Positions 2,433-19,995 of a stretch of 20,515 nucleotides of DNA are shown piece by piece. The stretch is from a virus. The stretch covers positions 1 through 20,515 of IMG/VR virus record IMGVR_UViG_3300025010_000270, one strand, 5' to 3'. The position numbers and the translations under genes are program-made. The notes under the pieces are model-generated. The model was not told the origin of the DNA. It made no database searches and saw only the letters and a program-made list of their open reading frames with translations. Numbering within the stretch: the first letter of the stretch is position 1; every line of letters starts with the position of its first letter.

Positions 2433-4051
2433 GCATCAGGGATAAGATAGCCATGGGGCTCGCCAGGGCCGCTGCCTCCGTCGGGTCGTGGACCTGGCGT
2501 GGCGGAAGGTCTGGTGGAAACGGATTCGACGGATCGAAGATCCGCGGATCTCTGCGAAGCGCGTACCCGTCTTCCGCCGAGCTCGATCACACCCTCCTCC
2601 GCAACCGTTCTCGCGCTGCCTTCTGGGATTCCTCCCAGGGTGGTGCGATCCTCCAGCGCCTGGCCGATAACGTGATCGGCACCGGCCTGCAGCTGGAGGC
2701 GTCTCCCCTATGGGACCTTATCGGGAAAGCCATGGAAGACGAGACGAAGCGCCGCCAGTGGGCGCGCGATGTCGAGCTCCGCTTCTGGGCCTGGGCCTCG
2801 TCTACCGAACCCGATTCCGCCGGGCGACGGAGCTTGTTCGAGTTGATGGGATTCGCCTACCTGAACGAACTTCGCGACGGTGAGTGTCCGACCATCCTGC
2901 GCTACTCGGGCGACTCAACCAGGACCTCTCCCATCTCGCTTCAGTTCGTCGACCCTGACCAGATCGACAACCCCATGAACTCAGTCGACCTCGAGGCGAT
3001 CAACGCCCGAGGGAATGTCGTGGCCGACGGCGTCGAGCTGACGAAGTATGGCGAGCTTGTGGCCATCCATATCCTTGATCCCTACACGAGGAAGACGACA
3101 AGGATACCCGTCTGGGGTGAGGCTCGCCGATTCGTGATCATGCCCGCGCTCCTCGATCTGCCAGGGCAGATCCGGGGAGTCGGGATCTTAGCACCGGTCA
3201 TCCACGAGCTCCAAAAAATAACGGACTACGAACTCTGCGAGATAGAGGCGGCCTTGGTGAATGCGGTCATCGCCGCTTATATAAAGCCTAGCGCCGAAAG
3301 CGACACCCGATCGAATATTGCCGCGGCTCTCGGATCTGGCGCCTCTCTGCGCGGATCCACCAGCACTGGATCATCTGGAACGTCTGAGCCTGAAGAGAAG
3401 CGAATCACGAAGCCCGGGCTCTTCATCCAGAACCTCAAGGCCGGAGAGGACATTACGAGCTTCGATACGAAGCGCCCGAATGTCAACTTCGATGCCTTCA
3501 TTTCCGCGATCACTAAGCACGTCAGCGCCCGCCTTTCCATCCCCGTCGAAACCCTGGAGATGAAATTCAGTTCCAACTACTCCGCATCTCGTGCGGCATT
3601 GATCATGTTCTGGCAGACGATCGATCGCGGAAGGATGCACTTTTCAACGCAATTCCTTCAGCCCATCTATGAAGCATGGCTCGCCGAAGAGATCAAGGCG
3701 AAAAGGATATCGGCTCCCGGGTACGGACGCTCCCCTCTCATGACAAGGGCCTGGGTTTCCACCTCGTGGCTCGGGCAGTCCATGCCCAGCATAGATCCGG
3801 TGAAGGACGCCCAGGCTGACGACGCGCGAATCGCGCAGGGCTCCACCACGCGCGAGCGTGTCGCCCTCAAGTACAACGGGAGCGACTTCTTCGAGAATGC
3901 CGAAAGGCAGAAGCGGGAGCTTGAAATGCTTCCTGCTGCACCCGCTGCGCCAGTTCCTCCCCAGCTAAATACCACGCAACTCAAAAATCAGAGGACCTCT
4001 CCCGATGGAGAAGACGGAGAAAAAAACAATTCCGACGGAGAGCCCGAATGA
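2429..4051 (+). CDS. Phage portal protein, lambda gpB family
   Basis: The portal forms the dodecameric ring at one head vertex through which DNA enters and leaves, and it docks terminase and the head-tail connectors. The 540 residues are typical for the lambda-type family. Recognisable segments are the N-terminal region ending in LRNRSRAAFWDSSQGG, the FVDPDQIDNP segment, and the conserved PGQIRGVGILAPVIHELQ stretch with the following helical KITDYELCEIEAALV. The C-terminus is Pro-rich and ends in an acidic, disordered tail. The GTG start is coupled to the gpW-like stop. Downstream, an ATGA overlap leads into a small membrane-protein gene, whereas in lambda the protease would follow directly. 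Confidence 0.92.
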   Translation: MSIRDKIAMGLARAAASVGSWTWRGGRSGGNGFDGSKIRGSLRSAYPSSAELDHTLLRNRSRAAFWDSSQGGAILQRLADNVIGTGLQLEASPLWDLIGKAMEDETKRRQWARDVELRFWAWASSTEPDSAGRRSLFELMGFAYLNELRDGECPTILRYSGDSTRTSPISLQFVDPDQIDNPMNSVDLEAINARGNVVADGVELTKYGELVAIHILDPYTRKTTRIPVWGEARRFVIMPALLDLPGQIRGVGILAPVIHELQKITDYELCEIEAALVNAVIAAYIKPSAESDTRSNIAAALGSGASLRGSTSTGSSGTSEPEEKRITKPGLFIQNLKAGEDITSFDTKRPNVNFDAFISAITKHVSARLSIPVETLEMKFSSNYSASRAALIMFWQTIDRGRMHFSTQFLQPIYEAWLAEEIKAKRISAPGYGRSPLMTRAWVSTSWLGQSMPSIDPVKDAQADDARIAQGSTTRERVALKYNGSDFFENAERQKRELEMLPAAPAAPVPPQLNTTQLKNQRTSPDGEDGEKNNSDGEPE

Positions 4052-4302
4052 GCATTTCTGACATTGTGACGATTGCGGGGGTTTCTCTCACAGCCATTGG
4101 AGCAGTTTCTGGAGTTGTGGTTTGGCTCATGCGTTCAACGTTGGCTCCACTACAGGTGGTCATTGAGAACAATACAGCCGCAATTAACAAAGTTCTTGAG
4201 AAAGTTGATGACCACGATGTGAAGCTTGAGGACCATGGGAATCGGCTGGTGAAGATTGAAACGACGCATGCCTTGGAAGCGGAGATGGAGGTACGTCGAT
4301 GA
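4048..4302 (+). CDS. Small membrane/coiled-coil protein, possible holin or lysis accessory protein
   Basis: This 84-residue protein has one hydrophobic segment (about residues 6-28, VTIAGVSLTAIGAVSGVVVW). A soluble charged helix follows with heptad-like spacing (ENNTAAINKVLEKVDDHDVKLEDH), and the tail is charged. That is the shape of many small phage lysis proteins (holin, antiholin, XhlA-like or i-spanin-like). It overlaps the portal stop as ATGA and the C39-like peptidase start as ATGA. Its DNA is visibly less GC-rich, with more A/T at third codon positions than the portal gene, which suggests separate acquisition. The lysis role is inferred from topology and neighbours. A separate spanin pair at 20005-20455 makes an i-spanin role here less likely. 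Confidence 0.55.
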   Translation: MSISDIVTIAGVSLTAIGAVSGVVVWLMRSTLAPLQVVIENNTAAINKVLEKVDDHDVKLEDHGNRLVKIETTHALEAEMEVRR

Positions 4303-4904
4303 TATTAGGAGCGCCATACTGGAATGAGGGGTCGAGGCTTCATGTTCAGACGAACAATCCCACCGAGGAACAAATCGAGAAGGACGGCTTGCGCCCCTAT
4401 CTAGAAACCTGCGGACCTACCGCGAGCGTGAACTGTCTTGACGCACTCGGGGTAGACATTCTTATCGAGTGCCCTGGAATGTACATACCTCAATCAGAGG
4501 AAGTCCTAAACGATTTCCTCAATGACCCCGTGAACTATCCGCGGCTCTCCAAGATCCTTCCCGGAGTTGACCCGAACAAGGTTCATGGCAATAGGGTACC
4601 GGACTACTACCCTCTCGCAGTTGCTGACGTTTTCGCAACCGAAGGAAAGTTCTATCAAGTCCTTAAATGGGATGGGATCGTAGCAGAACTCAAGGAAGGC
4701 CACGCCGTTCAGATTTGCATAAAGGTCCCAGGTCACTACCTAGCCGCTGTGGCCTATGACGATGCAACCGAAGAGATCATTTACCACGACTCCTGGCCCA
4801 AGAGGACAAAAACAAATGGATTCGCTCTTCGCATGAAGCGGGGGGAATACGACTCGAACGTGAAAGACTGCGTGGTCGTCTACACGGGAAAGAAGGCTGT
4901 ATGA
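4299..4904 (+). CDS. C39-like cysteine peptidase, candidate endolysin
   Basis: This 201-residue protein has the hallmarks of a papain-like C39 fold: ETCGPTASVNCLDALG with candidate nucleophile Cys38, PGHYLAAVAYDD with His146, and IYHDSWPK with Asp164. These three would form a Cys/His/Asp triad in the usual order. There is no signal peptide and no transmembrane segment, so if it attacks peptidoglycan it would need a holin. The flanking genes encode small membrane proteins, making a compact membrane-enzyme-membrane cassette. Similar C39-like domains are known at the N-terminus of some mycobacteriophage lysins. A processing or anti-host peptidase is an alternative. The start overlaps the previous stop (ATGA), with GGAGGT just upstream. 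Confidence 0.7.
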   Translation: MILGAPYWNEGSRLHVQTNNPTEEQIEKDGLRPYLETCGPTASVNCLDALGVDILIECPGMYIPQSEEVLNDFLNDPVNYPRLSKILPGVDPNKVHGNRVPDYYPLAVADVFATEGKFYQVLKWDGIVAELKEGHAVQICIKVPGHYLAAVAYDDATEEIIYHDSWPKRTKTNGFALRMKRGEYDSNVKDCVVVYTGKKAV

Positions 4905-5158
4905 ACGATGACCAGAAGACCGGCGCCTTGGAGGAGTCTCCCGGAGTCATTTCTTCGAAACGCCTTTTCGGGGCAATCCTCATCTCAATCGGAGGGGCAT
5001 TTCTCCTGGCAATCGGTATCGCCGCCATGTTCATCGAAGTAAAGGATCCCGATACCGCCCTGAGCGCCGGCCAGGTCCTCATCATCACCGGTGCGGCCCT
5101 GCTCGGCGTAACGGTCCTTGAGGGAATTGCTCGTACCAGGACTGGGGGTGCGGCGTGA
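4901..5158 (+). CDS. Two-TM membrane protein, candidate holin
   Basis: The 85 residues contain a polar N-terminus and two hydrophobic helices (about 22-45, RLFGAILISIGGAFLLAIGI, and about 57-74, GQVLIITGAALLGVTVLE). A short acidic turn with Asp/Glu separates them, and the C-terminus is basic (ARTRTGGAA). Two helices, small size, a charged tail and a position directly after a putative cell-wall enzyme fit a class II holin. ATGA overlap with the peptidase gene and GTGA overlap with the head protease place it firmly in the operon. Sequence alone does not prove holin activity. Confidence 0.6.
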   Translation: MNDDQKTGALEESPGVISSKRLFGAILISIGGAFLLAIGIAAMFIEVKDPDTALSAGQVLIITGAALLGVTVLEGIARTRTGGAA

Positions 5159-7926: not shown

Positions 7927-8130
7927 ATGGCCGACCTGGTAAAAGTGCGATACCCCAACGGATTCGAACACGTCATGAAGCAGGATATCGCCGTGGTCCT
8001 CCAGAAAAGGAAGGCCCTGGTGATCGTCGACGAGAAGCCGACCGCGAAGGCTGACGAAGCCACCCCGCTCTTCGAGCAGACCTCCTCCGAGCGCAAGCCC
8101 AGGGCCTCCCGCAGGGACTTCGAGGCATGA
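7927..8130 (+). CDS. Small head-region protein of unknown function
   Basis: This 67-residue, charged protein has a compact N-terminal half with alternating hydrophobic residues (VKVRYPNGFEHVMKQDIAVV, then KALVIVDEK) and a disordered, Lys/Arg/Ser-rich tail. It follows the capsid gene with a good Shine-Dalgarno (AAAGGAG at 7914-7920). It overlaps the next gene as ATGA. Small genes in this place often encode head-completion or minor virion proteins such as lambda FI, but the sequence is not recognisable enough to say which. Confidence 0.7.
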   Translation: MADLVKVRYPNGFEHVMKQDIAVVLQKRKALVIVDEKPTAKADEATPLFEQTSSERKPRASRRDFEA

Positions 8131-8732
8131 ACATTCGCGAGCTCGCCGAAGCGGACAACGCATTCCTCCTCGAAGACGACGAGCTCGGATTCGGTGTGTC
8201 GATCACGCTCAAACCGCCGGAGACTGCCGCCGTCATTGCGGCTCAAGCTGCGGGTACAAACGGCGTGACGATCCCGGCAGGAACCCTTTGGGAGGCTGGG
8301 ACTCAGCGCTACCAGCAGGGGGCCGCGGCGACCATCGCAAATGGGGTAGCCGCCATTGTCTTGAGGGCCCAGGAAACCGGACCGGACGCCAACCTGGCCG
8401 ACGGGTCGGACCTGACGCTTGTAACGGCTCAGGCAGGAATAACCGGAGCGACGGTTACCGACACGACCACGGAAGGGGCAGCCCCCGCCATCGTCGTGAA
8501 AGGTCAATACCATCGCGTTGGCGTGGACGTGGACCCGGAGACGGGTCTCCTCGTCCCAGGGAACAAGTCGGCCGTTACAGTCCGCCTGTCCCGCTTCTCC
8601 TCCGGGGATCTCCCGGATGAGGGCTGGACGATCGAGACGACCGACGTCACCGGGGCTGCGGTCGTCGGCAAGGCGAATCACGTCATGCTCGACCGAACCG
8701 CGGGACGCGCGACAATCATCATGAGGCGGTGA
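8127..8732 (+). CDS. Head-tail completion protein with an inserted baseplate-J-like beta domain
   Basis: The 201 residues fall into three parts. Residues 1-32 (MNIRELAEADNAFLLEDDE...) and about 125-201 (VDVDPETGLLVPGNKSAV, then LPDEGWTIE and VMLDRTAGRATI) read as one continuous, roughly 110-residue beta-rich protein of the kind encoded between capsid and tail genes. This is a lambda FII-like place. Residues about 33-120 are different: Ala/Thr/Gly-rich and aligning without gaps to residues 84-171 of the baseplate J protein of this same phage, including a shared IPAGTLW. By eye about 36 of 80 positions are identical. The insert probably adds an exposed beta domain on the head-tail junction. ATGA overlap links it to the previous gene. 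The function of the base protein is inferred from position. Confidence 0.7.
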   Translation: MNIRELAEADNAFLLEDDELGFGVSITLKPPETAAVIAAQAAGTNGVTIPAGTLWEAGTQRYQQGAAATIANGVAAIVLRAQETGPDANLADGSDLTLVTAQAGITGATVTDTTTEGAAPAIVVKGQYHRVGVDVDPETGLLVPGNKSAVTVRLSRFSSGDLPDEGWTIETTDVTGAAVVGKANHVMLDRTAGRATIIMRR

Positions 8733-8736
8733 CCAA

Positions 8737-9330
8737 ATGCCCATCATCGCCCGCAGCGCCGAGGATATCCTTATCGACCGCATGGTTTCCGCCCTTCAGG
8801 CCTTCTCGGCACGGGAAGAAGCCATCGATCCTTCGGTGGGCTTCATTGTTCACCGAGACCAGCTCCGACCGGTATCTCAGCGGGATCTTCCGCTGGTCAA
8901 CATATGGCTGGACGGTCTGGTTCCGGAGGTCGGAGGATCATCCCGATTGATGGGCCAGGAAACGGCGACGATCAACGTCGACTGCTATTCGAGGGGGGAG
9001 GAGGGGGACGAGGTCACCTCCGACGAGGCGGCGATGGCCCGCCTGTACTACCTCAAGCAGCAGGTCAAGGCGGCTCTTTTCGCCCTGGTAAATGCAGATT
9101 TCTCCCTTCCGGCCGGATCGATAAGCAAGAAGCGCTGGCCGAGGTTTTCGCTTTTTCAGAATGACCTCAAGCTCCCGGAAGACCAAGTGGTCGCCGGGCG
9201 CTGGACGGTCGAGATCGAATACAGCTGGGCCCCGGAGGATTCAACCTCCGTCGCCCTGGACGAGATCGCGGTATCCCAGACGAACCGCGCCACCTGGTCC
9301 GCAGTCTACGAATACGGAGGTCCTTCATGA
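8737..9330 (+). CDS. Tail completion/terminator-type protein, Mu gp37-like position
   Basis: This 197-residue protein lies directly before the tail sheath gene, where Mu-like phages carry genes J and 37 for head-tail joining and tail termination. The sequence begins with a helix (SAEDILIDRMVSALQAFSA), continues with strands around QRDLPLVNIWLDG and ETATINVDCYSRG, and has a long helix (AMARLYYLKQQVKAALFAL) and a final strand (VAGRWTVEIEYSW). This alpha-beta order is common to tail terminator folds. The stop overlaps the sheath ATG as ATGA. The role is inferred mainly from synteny and predicted secondary structure. Confidence 0.6.
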   Translation: MPIIARSAEDILIDRMVSALQAFSAREEAIDPSVGFIVHRDQLRPVSQRDLPLVNIWLDGLVPEVGGSSRLMGQETATINVDCYSRGEEGDEVTSDEAAMARLYYLKQQVKAALFALVNADFSLPAGSISKKRWPRFSLFQNDLKLPEDQVVAGRWTVEIEYSWAPEDSTSVALDEIAVSQTNRATWSAVYEYGGPS

Positions 9331-10808
9331 GCATTGACTTCGCGCTCGTACCCGGTGGCGCCCTCGCCTCCGCGGTCTTCATCGAGCAGGCCTACAAGCG
9401 CGCGGGCGTCGGGGGCTTGAAGATTCCCCAGCGCGTCGCGCTTCTCGGGCAGTTCAATTCCGGCAAGACGCCCACGGCTAACCAGCCCCTCGCCATCACA
9501 AGCGCCGATGAGGCGGCCAGCTACTTCGGCAATGGGTCGATGCTGCACCTCATGGCCAAGGCCCTCTTCGCTGGTATCGGTTCCAGCGGCGTAAAGGTCG
9601 ATGCCTTCCCCCTGGGGGACGGGACCGGAACGGCGACCGGAACGATTGGGGTGGCGGGACCCGCCAGCGGAGCCGGAATCATCACCCTCTACATCGCCGG
9701 AAAGCGGATAACCGTTGCCGTCGCTTCCAGCGATGCCGCTTCGGCCATCGCTACCGCGATCGGTGCGGCCATCAACGCCAATCTGGACCTTCCCGTCTCG
9801 GCCACCGTCGCCGATACCACGGTGACCCTCACCTGTCGCTGGGTAGGTCTGTCGGGAAACCAGATTACCATCAAGCAGGATCTCGGCTCCGGGGAATCCA
9901 CAGCCGAACCGGCCGGCGTGACCCTCACCCTGGGCACCATGGCCAGCGGATCGGCGGATCCCTCGATCGCAACCGCCCTCGCCAACCTCGGCACGACTTT
10001 CTACACCTGGGTAGTCTGCCCTTACAACGCAGACGCCTCCCTGGATCTCCTGGAGACCGCCGGGGTGGCTCGCATCGATCCGGCCGTCAAGAAGCCCTTC
10101 GCGGGCGTGGTCGGATACACGGGGACGCGCGCCGACTACCTCACCTGGCTCGGAGACCGCAACAGCCCCTGGACCACCTCCTTCCCCGTGGAAGGCAGCC
10201 CCAACCATCCGGCGGAGATCGCCGCTGCGGTCGTGGGCGTCTGCTCCCGCTCCGCCGACTCCGACCCGGCCCGCCCTTTCCGCACCCTGACCATTTCCGG
10301 GATTCTTCCCGGAACCGGCGCGGACTGGACCTGGGCGCAAAAGGACGCCGTCGAACAGGCCGGGGGATCCGCCTATTTTACCTCGAACGGAGCGGTGGGG
10401 ATTCATGACCTTCTCACCACCTACGTCACGAACACCCTGGGAGCGGTAGACGAATCCTGGCGCTATACCGAGACGATCATCAACGTCCAGGCCAAGATTT
10501 ACAGCCTGGACCAGCTCTTCCTTTCGGCTCCCTTCGACCGGGCGGTCGTGGTGGACGATGCGGCGATCACTTCCAAGGAGTACGCGGTTTCCCCGAAGCG
10601 CGTTAAGGCCTTCGTAATCGGCCTGATCGACGGGCTCTGGATTCCCGAAGGATGGAGCAAGGAGCGCGATACGATCGTGGCCGGAATCCAGGCGGAAATC
10701 GACTCGGTCAACCCGGGCCGGATCAACGTACTGGTGCCCGACATCATCACGACGGGCTTGCGAATCATGGCCGTCAAGTACCAGTGGTCCTTCGCGGCCG
10801 CGGCATAA
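9327..10808 (+). CDS. Contractile tail sheath protein, Mu gpL family
   Basis: The 493 residues match Mu gpL, which has almost the same length. The N-terminus (ALVPGGALASAVFIEQAYKR) and the KIPQRVALLGQFNSGKT segment are typical. The middle (about residues 100-210) is a Gly/Thr/Ala-rich beta insertion domain with LYIAGKRITVAVASSD, also known in this family. The C-terminal part contains the conserved sheath core (DRNSPWTTSFP, ETIINVQAKIYSLDQLF) and ends with VKYQWSFAAAA. Sheath subunits stack around the tube and contract to drive it through the cell envelope. The gene defines the phage as a myovirus. Confidence 0.93.
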   Translation: MSIDFALVPGGALASAVFIEQAYKRAGVGGLKIPQRVALLGQFNSGKTPTANQPLAITSADEAASYFGNGSMLHLMAKALFAGIGSSGVKVDAFPLGDGTGTATGTIGVAGPASGAGIITLYIAGKRITVAVASSDAASAIATAIGAAINANLDLPVSATVADTTVTLTCRWVGLSGNQITIKQDLGSGESTAEPAGVTLTLGTMASGSADPSIATALANLGTTFYTWVVCPYNADASLDLLETAGVARIDPAVKKPFAGVVGYTGTRADYLTWLGDRNSPWTTSFPVEGSPNHPAEIAAAVVGVCSRSADSDPARPFRTLTISGILPGTGADWTWAQKDAVEQAGGSAYFTSNGAVGIHDLLTTYVTNTLGAVDESWRYTETIINVQAKIYSLDQLFLSAPFDRAVVVDDAAITSKEYAVSPKRVKAFVIGLIDGLWIPEGWSKERDTIVAGIQAEIDSVNPGRINVLVPDIITTGLRIMAVKYQWSFAAAA

Positions 10809-16702: not shown

Positions 16703-17791
16703 ATGATCACGATCCCGACCGCGGCGCAAATCCGAGACCAGATTGTCGCGGATATCGAGGGCAAGATCGGACAGACGATTCCGGCCGCACCGAAGGCATT
16801 TTTCCGGGTCCTTGCTACCGCCCTGGCTGGCGTGCTGGCCCTACTCTACCGCTTTGGAGGCTGGGCATATCGGCAGATTTTCCCCCAGACGGCTGATGCG
16901 GACGGCCTGGCTCTGATCGGGGAGCAGTATGGCCTCGTCCGGGGAGCGGCCGTCGCGGCCGTTTTCCAGGCGGAGGCAACCGGAACCGAAGATACCATCA
17001 TTCCTGCCGGGACTCTCTGGACCCTGGATGTAATCGTCTACGAACAGAAGGACGCGGTCACTATCTCTTCGGGGGTCGCTACGATCATCCTTGAAGCCCT
17101 TACCACAGGGGACGATACCAACCGAACAGCTGGGGATGTGCTTTCGATCGTATCACCCCTGGCTGGGGTAGATCAGGAGATCACCGCAGGCGCCACGACC
17201 ACCACTGGAGAGGACGCAGAGGATCTGGAAACCTACCGAGCCCGCATTCTCACCCGCCTACGCAACCGGCCCCAGGGCGGGGCAACTCCCGACTATGTAA
17301 CCTGGGCCCTCGAGGTCGCAGGCATCGTCAAGGCCTTCGCCTTCCGAACCGACGCCGGAGAGGTCACCGTTTATCCTCTTGTCGCACTTACGGGGACGAG
17401 AATTCCGAACGGAGCGAAGCTTCTCGAGGTTCAGGGATACCTCCAGGACACGGTACGCCGGCCACTATGCGCGAACGTCCTGGCCGCTGCCATGACCGAA
17501 CGGATCCTCACCCCGACCGTCACCGCCGTCAGTCCGGATACGACCGCCATGAGGGAGGCCGTGGAGGACGCCTGGGAGGCCTACCTTCTGCGCGCCTTTC
17601 CCGTCCAGTACCTGGACGAAGCTAATCCGACCAACATTATATCCCTTGCGGCCCTCTACTCTGAGGCTATCGGGGCCGGTGTCAACTCGATCACCTTGAC
17701 GATGTCGCTTGACGGGGGAGGCTCCATCGCGGCCTACCAGCTCGATGAAAGCGAGATCGTCAAACTGGGGACGACCGTATGGCCGGTTTGA
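16703..17791 (+). CDS. Baseplate J protein, Mu gp47 family
   Basis: The 362-residue protein is the baseplate J/gp47 wedge component. The N-terminal helix (IPTAAQIRDQIVADIEGKIG), then DADGLALIGEQYGLVRGAA, lead into the beta domain IIPAGTLW...VYEQ...TISSGVATIILEA (about residues 84-171). The conserved DLETYRARILTRLRNRPQGG block follows, and a C-terminal half closes the gene. It starts directly after the gp46 stop with GGTGGGGG upstream. Its beta domain is closely related to an insert in the head-tail protein at 8127-8732. The assignment is secure. Confidence 0.93.
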   Translation: MITIPTAAQIRDQIVADIEGKIGQTIPAAPKAFFRVLATALAGVLALLYRFGGWAYRQIFPQTADADGLALIGEQYGLVRGAAVAAVFQAEATGTEDTIIPAGTLWTLDVIVYEQKDAVTISSGVATIILEALTTGDDTNRTAGDVLSIVSPLAGVDQEITAGATTTTGEDAEDLETYRARILTRLRNRPQGGATPDYVTWALEVAGIVKAFAFRTDAGEVTVYPLVALTGTRIPNGAKLLEVQGYLQDTVRRPLCANVLAAAMTERILTPTVTAVSPDTTAMREAVEDAWEAYLLRAFPVQYLDEANPTNIISLAALYSEAIGAGVNSITLTMSLDGGGSIAAYQLDESEIVKLGTTVWPV

Positions 17792-18456
17792 TGACCAAGA
17801 CCCTTCGGAGGCTTATGCCGGAGGGCAAAGCCTGGAGGGGTACAGTTTTACTTCAGGATGGCTTGTCTGTCTCCCTGGATGACGCGCGCTCCTTCCTTAC
17901 CGGAATCGTGGACGAAGCCCGACCGGAAACAGCCGAGGACTTCATAGACGAATGGCTCGAACTCCTGGGGATTTCCATGGCCGAGTCGTCCACCCTGGGC
18001 CAGAAGAGGAAAACCGCCGAGGCGGTTTTTGTCTCGGTCGGGGGCCAGTCGGTCGATTACCTGAATTCAAGGCTTCGCGACGCCTATCCGAACGCCTACA
18101 TTGACGAGGCTGATTCATCGGATACCGGAACTGCTGGCGTCGGGGAGTGCGGGGACGCATCCTGCGAGTCGGAAGTGGCCTTCACTTTATTTTACTACGT
18201 CCGGGGCTTTGTCCCATTTTCACGGGACGTCAACTCGGTTAAAGCGCTACTCACGCGGATAGCTCCGCTTCACCTGGTCCCGGTCTACGAGGTCCGCGGG
18301 GTCTACGACGGAGACGTCGCCCGCTGCGGAGTCGGATCGATCGGACGGGCGATCACGGGACGGCGCGAGACGGCATGGTCGGAAACTGACGGAGAAGTCG
18401 GGCGCTCTGGCGTCGGCGTCACCGGAATTGCAATTACAGGGAGGATTCCTGCATGA
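17779..18456 (+). CDS. Baseplate/tail-fibre linker protein, Mu gp48 (YmfQ/DUF2313) family
   Basis: The 225 residues fit the gp48 family, which connects baseplate J to the tail fibres. Typical are the N-terminal KTLRRLMPEGKAW, the DEARPETAEDFIDEWLELLG block, and the ELLGISMAESSTLGQKRKTA helix. Two short C-terminal repeats follow: ARCGVGSIGRAITG (about 181-194) and GRSGVGVTGIAITG (about 208-221). Start 17779 is preferred over the in-frame ATG at 17791 because GGGGA lies seven bases upstream of it. Three or four cysteines in the middle and C-terminal region could pair or bind metal. Confidence 0.85.
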   Translation: MAGLMTKTLRRLMPEGKAWRGTVLLQDGLSVSLDDARSFLTGIVDEARPETAEDFIDEWLELLGISMAESSTLGQKRKTAEAVFVSVGGQSVDYLNSRLRDAYPNAYIDEADSSDTGTAGVGECGDASCESEVAFTLFYYVRGFVPFSRDVNSVKALLTRIAPLHLVPVYEVRGVYDGDVARCGVGSIGRAITGRRETAWSETDGEVGRSGVGVTGIAITGRIPA

Positions 18457-19511
18457 AACGAACTACGGCACCGGGAAGCGCAGCCGGTCTCTATGTCGAC
18501 GATAATCCCGCTCTGGGCGTCGTCGGAACTCTTCTCGTCGCGGAAGACCGCAACGGCACCCAGGAAGAGCTCTGCGGCCCCATCGAAGGCATGGGGCTCA
18601 CCCTGTCCGGGGCAGACAGCACCCAGCTCTGGAAGGCCATCCGGAAGGCTATCAAGGAGCGAGGGCGCGAGGTCGGGGAAGTATTTTCCCTCATGGACCG
18701 GAAGCCCGCCGTCGCCTGGTCAGAGTCGACGCCGGACACCTATTTCCCGGCGATCTGCCTGTCGGCGATAGCCACCTACCTGGATGTAGCCACGGCAAAC
18801 TATCCGGACCTGGTTGCCTACCTTCGGGCAGCGAAACTCACTTTCAAGGCCGGACTCACGGGGGAAATCGCCGATCCGGTCGTAACAAACTGGGCGATCG
18901 CTGCCAACGTAGGCACCCTCACCTTCCAAAACGACGCCGATCATATCGCCTTCCTCACCGCGCTCCTCGAGGACGAGCTTGTCCATGGATCCTACACGAA
19001 TTGGCGTTCCATTACCCTGGCGGCGAACATCGGAAATATCACCGCAGGGACCTACGCGATCACGAACGTCAACGCGGCCAGCCGCACGGTCTCCTTTGCC
19101 TTCTCCGCAGTAAATGCATCGGGAGCCGTGACCTCTTCGGCTTCGTTCTACTCTCATCGCGTCGCGGGATCCACCACCACAGCCCGCCTATTCGAAGTCA
19201 AGGGACGCTCCCTGGTATCCGCGAATGATGGCGAGGGCGTGGCCGGACTAAGACATCGAGACCGGATGCAAGGGCACTGGCACAACTTCCGCTGGACTAG
19301 CAACGGGACCCCTGTGGGATCAGTTAATACTTTCGCCTCATCTGCAGGCAGCCGTGGCGTTGCCGCCGCGACTGCTACCGCTTATGACGCGATCAATATC
19401 GACTCGCCGATCACCGACGGCGCTAACGGAACGCCTCGGACAGGCCCGACGACAGATCCGCGCGCCTTGTCGGTCCATTTCTATATCCACGCAGGGAGGG
19501 CCATCGCATGA
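18453..19511 (+). CDS. Tail fibre protein
   Basis: This 352-residue protein follows gp48, where the receptor-binding fibre is expected. The N-terminal 70 residues (MKRTTAPGSAAGLYVDDNP, EDRNGTQEELCGPIEG) form a common fibre attachment module that recurs in the short gene at 19687. The middle is Ala/Thr/Ser/Asn-rich and beta-like (NITAGTYAITNVNAASRTVS). The C-terminus carries RHRDRMQGHWHNFRW and RALSVHFYIHAG, a pattern of tail-collar-type fibre tips with His residues. It would set host range. GGGAGG lies upstream of the ATG, which overlaps the gp48 stop (ATGA). Confidence 0.82.
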   Translation: MKRTTAPGSAAGLYVDDNPALGVVGTLLVAEDRNGTQEELCGPIEGMGLTLSGADSTQLWKAIRKAIKERGREVGEVFSLMDRKPAVAWSESTPDTYFPAICLSAIATYLDVATANYPDLVAYLRAAKLTFKAGLTGEIADPVVTNWAIAANVGTLTFQNDADHIAFLTALLEDELVHGSYTNWRSITLAANIGNITAGTYAITNVNAASRTVSFAFSAVNASGAVTSSASFYSHRVAGSTTTARLFEVKGRSLVSANDGEGVAGLRHRDRMQGHWHNFRWTSNGTPVGSVNTFASSAGSRGVAAATATAYDAINIDSPITDGANGTPRTGPTTDPRALSVHFYIHAGRAIA

Positions 19512-19690
19512 AGAAGATAGTCTTCACGAAGGGAAAAAAGGTCGAGGAATTCTCCCTGGATGATCCTGACTTCCCGGCGGAGGTCATGATCCGCGCCGTC
19601 GAGGCTACCGCGGCCTCGCATAACTTGGAGGCTCCGGACGATCTCTGGATATTCGAGATCGTGGGCGACCAGGAACAGGGGGAGCCGTGA
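19508..19690 (+). CDS. Small acidic protein of unknown function in the fibre region
   Basis: The 60 residues start with a basic strand (MKKIVFTKGKKVEEFSL), then DDPDFPAEVMIRAVEATAAS and an acidic C-terminus. I do not recognise it. The ATGA and GTGA overlaps on both sides and GGGAGG before the start support real translation. The position between two fibre genes would suit a fibre chaperone or attachment protein, but nothing in the sequence proves this. Confidence 0.6.
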   Translation: MKKIVFTKGKKVEEFSLDDPDFPAEVMIRAVEATAASHNLEAPDDLWIFEIVGDQEQGEP

Positions 19691-19995
19691 ACCGAACCGC
19701 AGCGGCCGGATCGTCCGGCGGAATGTACGTCGACAAGGCGGAAGGGGTATCGGGAACGAAGCTCACGGCAGCGGACCATAACCAGCACCAAGAAGAGCTC
19801 ATTGCAGTCATAGCAGGCGGAGGGCTCACGCCTGATTCTGGAGTTCTCACGCAGGTCAGGGACGCGATCAGAAATATCGCTGTCCCGGTCGATTTCGTCT
19901 ATACCCAGCTACCCGGAATGGTAAATCCTGCGACCCTATGGCCATGGGCAACCTGGGCGGAGATTTCGTCAAACGTCTGGCGCCGTACCGCATAG
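19687..19995 (+). CDS. Short paralogue of the tail fibre N-terminus, collar-like
   Basis: The first about 70 of 102 residues align with the N-terminus of the 352-residue fibre (shared RT, YVD, GV-GT, QEEL, GLT, TQ, AIR; roughly 32 of 70 identical by eye). The second part reads VDFVYTQLPGMVNPATLWPW, then ATWAEIS. This is the opening of a collar-type fibre tip, but the protein ends at NVWRRTA where longer relatives would continue. It may be a complete short fibre, an adaptor, or a fibre cut short by a stop. The GTG start overlaps the previous stop as GTGA. Confidence 0.7.
   Translation: MNRTAAAGSSGGMYVDKAEGVSGTKLTAADHNQHQEELIAVIAGGGLTPDSGVLTQVRDAIRNIAVPVDFVYTQLPGMVNPATLWPWATWAEISSNVWRRTA

Follow-up and report, generated by a model that had tools for sequence, protein, structure and literature searches.

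A domain related to the baseplate J wing lies within the head-closure stopper of a Mu-like contractile-tailed phage

How does a domain of the baseplate wedge come to lie in a protein of the head–tail junction, and what might it do there? The question is raised by a 20,515-base viral sequence from IMG/VR (hereafter the window, meaning the whole stretch analysed), whose source is a Mu-like contractile-tailed phage. A preliminary description had noticed in it a head–tail completion protein of 201 amino acids (8127–8732) carrying a beta domain of the J protein (362 amino acids; 16703–17791), and both reading frames are as it gave them. The former belongs to a run of genes for terminase, portal, S49 protease, decoration protein, gpT-like head protein, a small ORF, the 8127–8732 product, tail terminator, sheath and tube. 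The same order occurs in annotated phages, among them Aeromonas phage AeroV_348, in which the gene at the corresponding position is annotated as a head-to-tail joining protein. Upstream, on the same plus strand, lies the small ORF (7927–8130, 67 amino acids), which has a small counterpart at the equivalent place in the relative L004 and in AeroV_348, and for which family searches gave no match. Downstream, the gene adjoins that of the tail terminator, as it does in AeroV_348 and the collinear relatives; the terminator (8737–9330, plus strand, 197 amino acids) is assigned by position, being in the same place as the annotated AeroV_348 tail terminator, and is 49–59% identical to the proteins of L003, L004, L006, L007 and L040 and 45% identical to a partial protein of L020. 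The tail sheath follows at 9327–10808 (plus strand; phrog_165, 3e-112).

Elsewhere on the contigs, the interval 4048–5158, between portal and S49 protease, holds a small ORF with a hydrophobic N terminus and weak holin-family matches, a 201-amino-acid C39-like peptidase and an 85-amino-acid ORF. The peptidase match (0.0014) is below the cut-off, with a Cys in LETCGP and a His in GHYLA, and its gene is also found in L020 and L040; the interval looks like a putative lysis cassette within the head gene module. Two tail-fibre-like ORFs, 18453–19511 and 19687–19995, have a common N-terminal anchor (41% over 95 amino acids, 3e-13). The latter, just 102 amino acids long, may be a remnant, an additional fibre gene or one that can be exchanged. 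On the contig of L007, a fibre-like stretch (L022, 3595–3933), separate from the main fibre gene, gives a 34% match to fibre residues 237–345 and lies upstream of a gp46-like gene.

The host protein can be identified from its core. Residues 118–199 match positions 33–122 of the 127 in phrog_4598, the head-closure family Hc1 (7e-6, PHROGs), and the stretch before the inserted block accounts for the family's first 32 positions. The same family was matched by 11 of 13 short relatives, at best with 8.5e-39. No sequence relatives of the core were found in the PDB. Together with gene position, the Hc1 match upholds the proposed head–tail completion identity and sharpens it: the 8127–8732 product is the stopper, the second head-completion protein, of the lambda gpFII type. 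By analogy with the stopper family, it is predicted to form a hexamer that closes the DNA channel.

Between the two parts of this core lies the block, in which Pfam by itself recognises PF04865 (Baseplate_J), at residues 33–118 (3e-9, above the cut-off). The match covers profile positions 21–110 of 255, so that the wing, or beta domain, is present, whereas the full J architecture of core bundle, trifurcation and dimerization domain is absent; the stopper has 201 amino acids against 356–373 in the J proteins compared. The window's own J protein (16703–17791, plus strand) is a baseplate wedge protein of the Mu gp47 family (PF04865, 3.9e-42; Mu gp47 9ki1_H, 4.1e-23). Aligned without gaps, stopper residues 33–120 and J residues 84–171 are identical at 36 of 88 positions, where the estimate by eye had been 36 of 80. 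BLASTP of the pair gave 34/72 identities (E = 7e-15), and the local alignment score was 165, compared with a mean of 44 (SD 7.4, maximum 75) in 500 shuffles. Comparing profiles of the two known long stoppers with four J proteins, hhalign returned a probability of 98.8 and an E value of 5.6e-17 over 95 columns at 41% identity. We therefore reject chance similarity and can affirm that homologous modules occur in the neck stopper and in the baseplate wedge, the significant profile–profile match included.

In the J protein, the related domain comprises residues 82–171 (16946–17215, plus strand), as placed by BLASTP, the ungapped alignment and hhalign. The J homologue of diffocin has a 'wing' domain inserted between its core bundle and its trifurcation unit, reminiscent of T4 gp6, and this wing touches the hub-hydrolase (PMC10996793); in that structure residues 1–76 were built de novo and the remainder comes from a predicted model (PMC10996793). 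The match of the diffocin protein to the window J starts at its residue 70. Because the block lies just past the N-terminal helical part of J, we infer that it is the wing of the diffocin authors, and we use that name below. The J wing of the window (16946–17215) diverges much faster than the remainder of J, with 48–51% as opposed to 71–72% identity to L007 and L004.

Structure prediction placed the insertion. The AlphaFold2 model of the 201-residue stopper (mean pLDDT 91.7, pTM 0.72, no segment below 50) has two well-formed domains. Searched against the PDB with Foldseek, the full model found as its best matches the J or wedge proteins of Mu (gp47), diffocin, A-1(L) and Pa193, with stoppers lower in the same list. 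The wedge matches probably fall on the block; as the Foldseek table gives no query residues, we located them from the sequence match. In the model the block does resemble the J domain, as the preliminary description had anticipated, although the input alignment included J wing fragments, so that its fold and the homology claim are not independent of each other. Among the BFVD and PDB matches listed, no structure spanned both domains, the best TM score by query length being 0.41. For the core, we modelled the block-free stopper of L006 (pLDDT 85.6), which matched the R4C stopper (TM 0.61/0.69), lambda gpFII (0.58/0.60), the Chi and T1 stoppers and the phiXa head-to-tail connector; with a best structural E value of 1.1e-3, this is supportive, not overwhelming, for a beta-barrel stopper fold. 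Both models begin with a helix at residues 3–16. In L006 a strand (23–29), a short loop and a second strand (37–51) follow, and in the window protein a strand (24–29), the block and a strand (122–130), placing the graft, in these models, in the β1–β2 loop. The gene can accordingly be divided, on the plus strand, into a first core part (residues 1–31; 8127–8219), given by short-form alignment and model secondary structure; the inserted wing (about residues 32–118; 8220–8480), given by Pfam, the block-free relatives and hhalign to J; and a second core part (residues 119–201; 8481–8729), given by phrog_4598. On the combined evidence of PHROG Hc1, Pfam Baseplate_J, AlphaFold2 and gene order, we regard a J wing inserted in a stopper as close to certain.

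Natural relatives show the protein with and without its insertion. We gathered IMG/VR relatives with the sheath, stopper and J proteins as queries and found a stopper of 112–151 amino acids lacking the block in 16 contigs (L003, L004, L006, L008, L020, L021, L028, L029, L030, L032, L040–L043, L046 and L047), of which L021 and L030 are weak stopper matches (4e-8 and 8e-5). A block-free stopper is also encoded by 12 isolate phages. The L006 protein has no block, although it shares 72% identity with the window core. These short forms lack exactly this segment, bearing out the expectation that its removal would leave a plausible protein. Given these forms, the J-like fold of the block and the significant profile match, none of the conditions that the preliminary description had named as refuting it applied. 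The window phage and its relatives are collinear, and their other genes have diverged to a similar degree. Only one further long form came to light in the IMG/VR and INPHARED searches: the stopper of L007, from a different metagenome, has 210 amino acids, 55% full-length identity to that of the window and the block at the equivalent place, and a stopper profile breaks both long proteins into two stretches flanking the block. Relatives were recovered by alignment queries and by the sheath and J proteins; single-protein scans of genome and viral contigs with the full stopper found none, nor did tblastn of INPHARED with the full stopper or with the block alone. Scanning viral contigs with the wing alone returned J proteins and the L007 stopper, with no third host protein. 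At the window's insertion site, the L041 stopper (3676–4053) has an extended proline-rich loop (APTVAPDPAPDP), indicating that this loop tolerates changes in length.

Where did the wing come from? The suggestion that it had been exchanged by recombination inside one phage was not supported by comparison with the window's own J. At the DNA level the graft and that J wing are 48% identical, and their third codon positions agree at 24 of 88, which is random. The graft's own J wing, at 43% identity, resembles it less than do the L004 J wing (48%) and the L007 graft (47%). A recent intragenomic duplication is rejected on both counts; an old origin from the own J remains within the 5% limit, as an AU test of that pairing gave p = 0.08. 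Between the window and L007, the grafts are 47% identical (codon positions 61/64/27%) and the J wings 48% (60/72/18%). Judged from these comparisons, the graft is old, and selection maintains it with roughly the strictness seen in the J wing, evidence against a passenger in decay. The two grafts cluster at 94/88 in the wing tree, whereas in the stopper-core tree the long forms came together in 2% of bootstraps, their grouping not being rejected (AU p = 0.19). There may thus have been one gain followed by loss or by recombination of the core, or two gains.

A chimeric contig in which a piece of J was joined into the stopper gene has a negligible chance of explaining the architecture. The window is a 20,515-base virus record and possibly a fragment, but assembly error sits badly with a graft whose DNA is only 48% identical to its own J and with the recurrence of this architecture, at the equivalent position, in the contig of L007, from another metagenome; we reject it.

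What, then, would the wing do? The decoration or binding module of the preliminary description is a plausible candidate. Stopper hexamers are located between adaptor and tail terminator, where they hold the DNA and dock the tail (PMC12886913 and PMC10276861), and as stoppers assemble in this way, six wing domains, one per subunit, would encircle the neck. In the explanation we favour, which as a whole seems probable to us, the loop between the first two stopper strands acquired a complete wing beta domain of J/gp47 in the distant past, and this domain acts as a neck brace or a set of docking knobs. The wings would brace outward or dock as knobs, contacting the terminator, the top sheath ring or the capsid vertex and stiffening the adaptor–stopper–terminator joint, while the conserved core would keep the work of a stopper, namely plugging the adaptor, retaining DNA and docking the terminator. 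This role is favoured by analogy with the neck of Staphylococcus phage 812: PMC12886913 describes an external beta-sandwich on its stopper gp97, lacking in E217 and Pa193, and separate neck decoration proteins thought by the authors to reinforce the same joints. Taken by itself, the assignment of the inserted wing as a brace on the outside of the neck is tentative, falling a little short of an even chance.

Other functions are less probable. The wing might be displayed round the neck for adhesion, binding cell-surface or environmental polymers weakly in the manner of the Ig-like decorations of phages. Beta domains found on necks and collars may look like glycan binders, for example the D domain of Milano gp13 (PMC10491603), and neck passage proteins, some with carbohydrate-binding domains, are hotspots of domain shuffling (PMC10684548). 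We nevertheless find adhesion unlikely, given that carbohydrate-binding families went unmatched in family searches of the stopper and that the wing of the solved diffocin wedge touches another virion protein (PMC10996793). Slightly less likely still is a neutral passenger, a domain that has been no more than tolerated since it entered a permissive loop; the many close relatives that live without the block and the longer loop of L041 at the equivalent site would suit it, whereas two phages with saturated third codon positions both keep the graft whole and in frame, and its first two positions show much the same conservation as those of the J wing. It would be more surprising if the graft bound the partner of the J wing on the hub side, or a scaffold or chaperone, coupling both virion ends during assembly. 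That idea draws on the hub-hydrolase contact made by diffocin wings (PMC10996793) and on the family motifs retained in the window graft (IPAGT.W, Y.Q and I..GVA.I). However, in a completed virion the hub lies at the far end of the tail, L007 has lost part of the motif in its graft (IPINTRW), and the graft of the window does not follow its own J. Bracing or docking at the neck remains our preferred reading.

The apparent folding of the J wing in a foreign loop suggests that it is able to do so, and supports treating the wing as an independent module. In a small, conserved ring protein, the graft provides a natural with/without pair in collinear phages, which lets one ask what extra beta domains do on phage necks. 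We found no earlier report or structure of a J wing in a stopper in open-licence papers, the PDB or BFVD, and no further case in IMG/VR and INPHARED beyond the window and L007 phages. Whether this is the first reuse of a wedge wing in a stopper ring, placing homologous modules in the head-proximal and distal rings and bracing the neck or linking baseplate-type contacts to genome retention, we consider evenly balanced.

Parts of this picture are already known: unrelated phage proteins, neck proteins among them, share domains (PMC10684548), and a stopper can carry an added beta domain (phage 812). The extra domain of phage 812 gp97, external as proposed here and missing in E217 and Pa193, is described in the excerpts of PMC12886913 as a beta-sandwich, unlinked to baseplate J, and we liken it to the graft by description. 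Excerpts of PMC10684548 report homologous domains across functionally different structural proteins, neck proteins included, as in the window; wedge–stopper sharing is not described in them, and they note a low structural diversity of head–tail joining proteins relative to their genetic diversity. Among Baseplate J, Mu gp47, T4 gp6 and diffocin TRI-2 (PF04865), the wing beta domain is homologous to the stopper block, while the window stopper is without the core-bundle helices, trifurcation and dimerization parts of that family. With the lambda gpFII-type stoppers (lambda, R4C, Chi and T1; phrog_4598) it has in common the core fold, the N-terminal helix and a gene preceding that of the tail terminator; the solved members, at 102–123 amino acids, differ from it in carrying no J wing.
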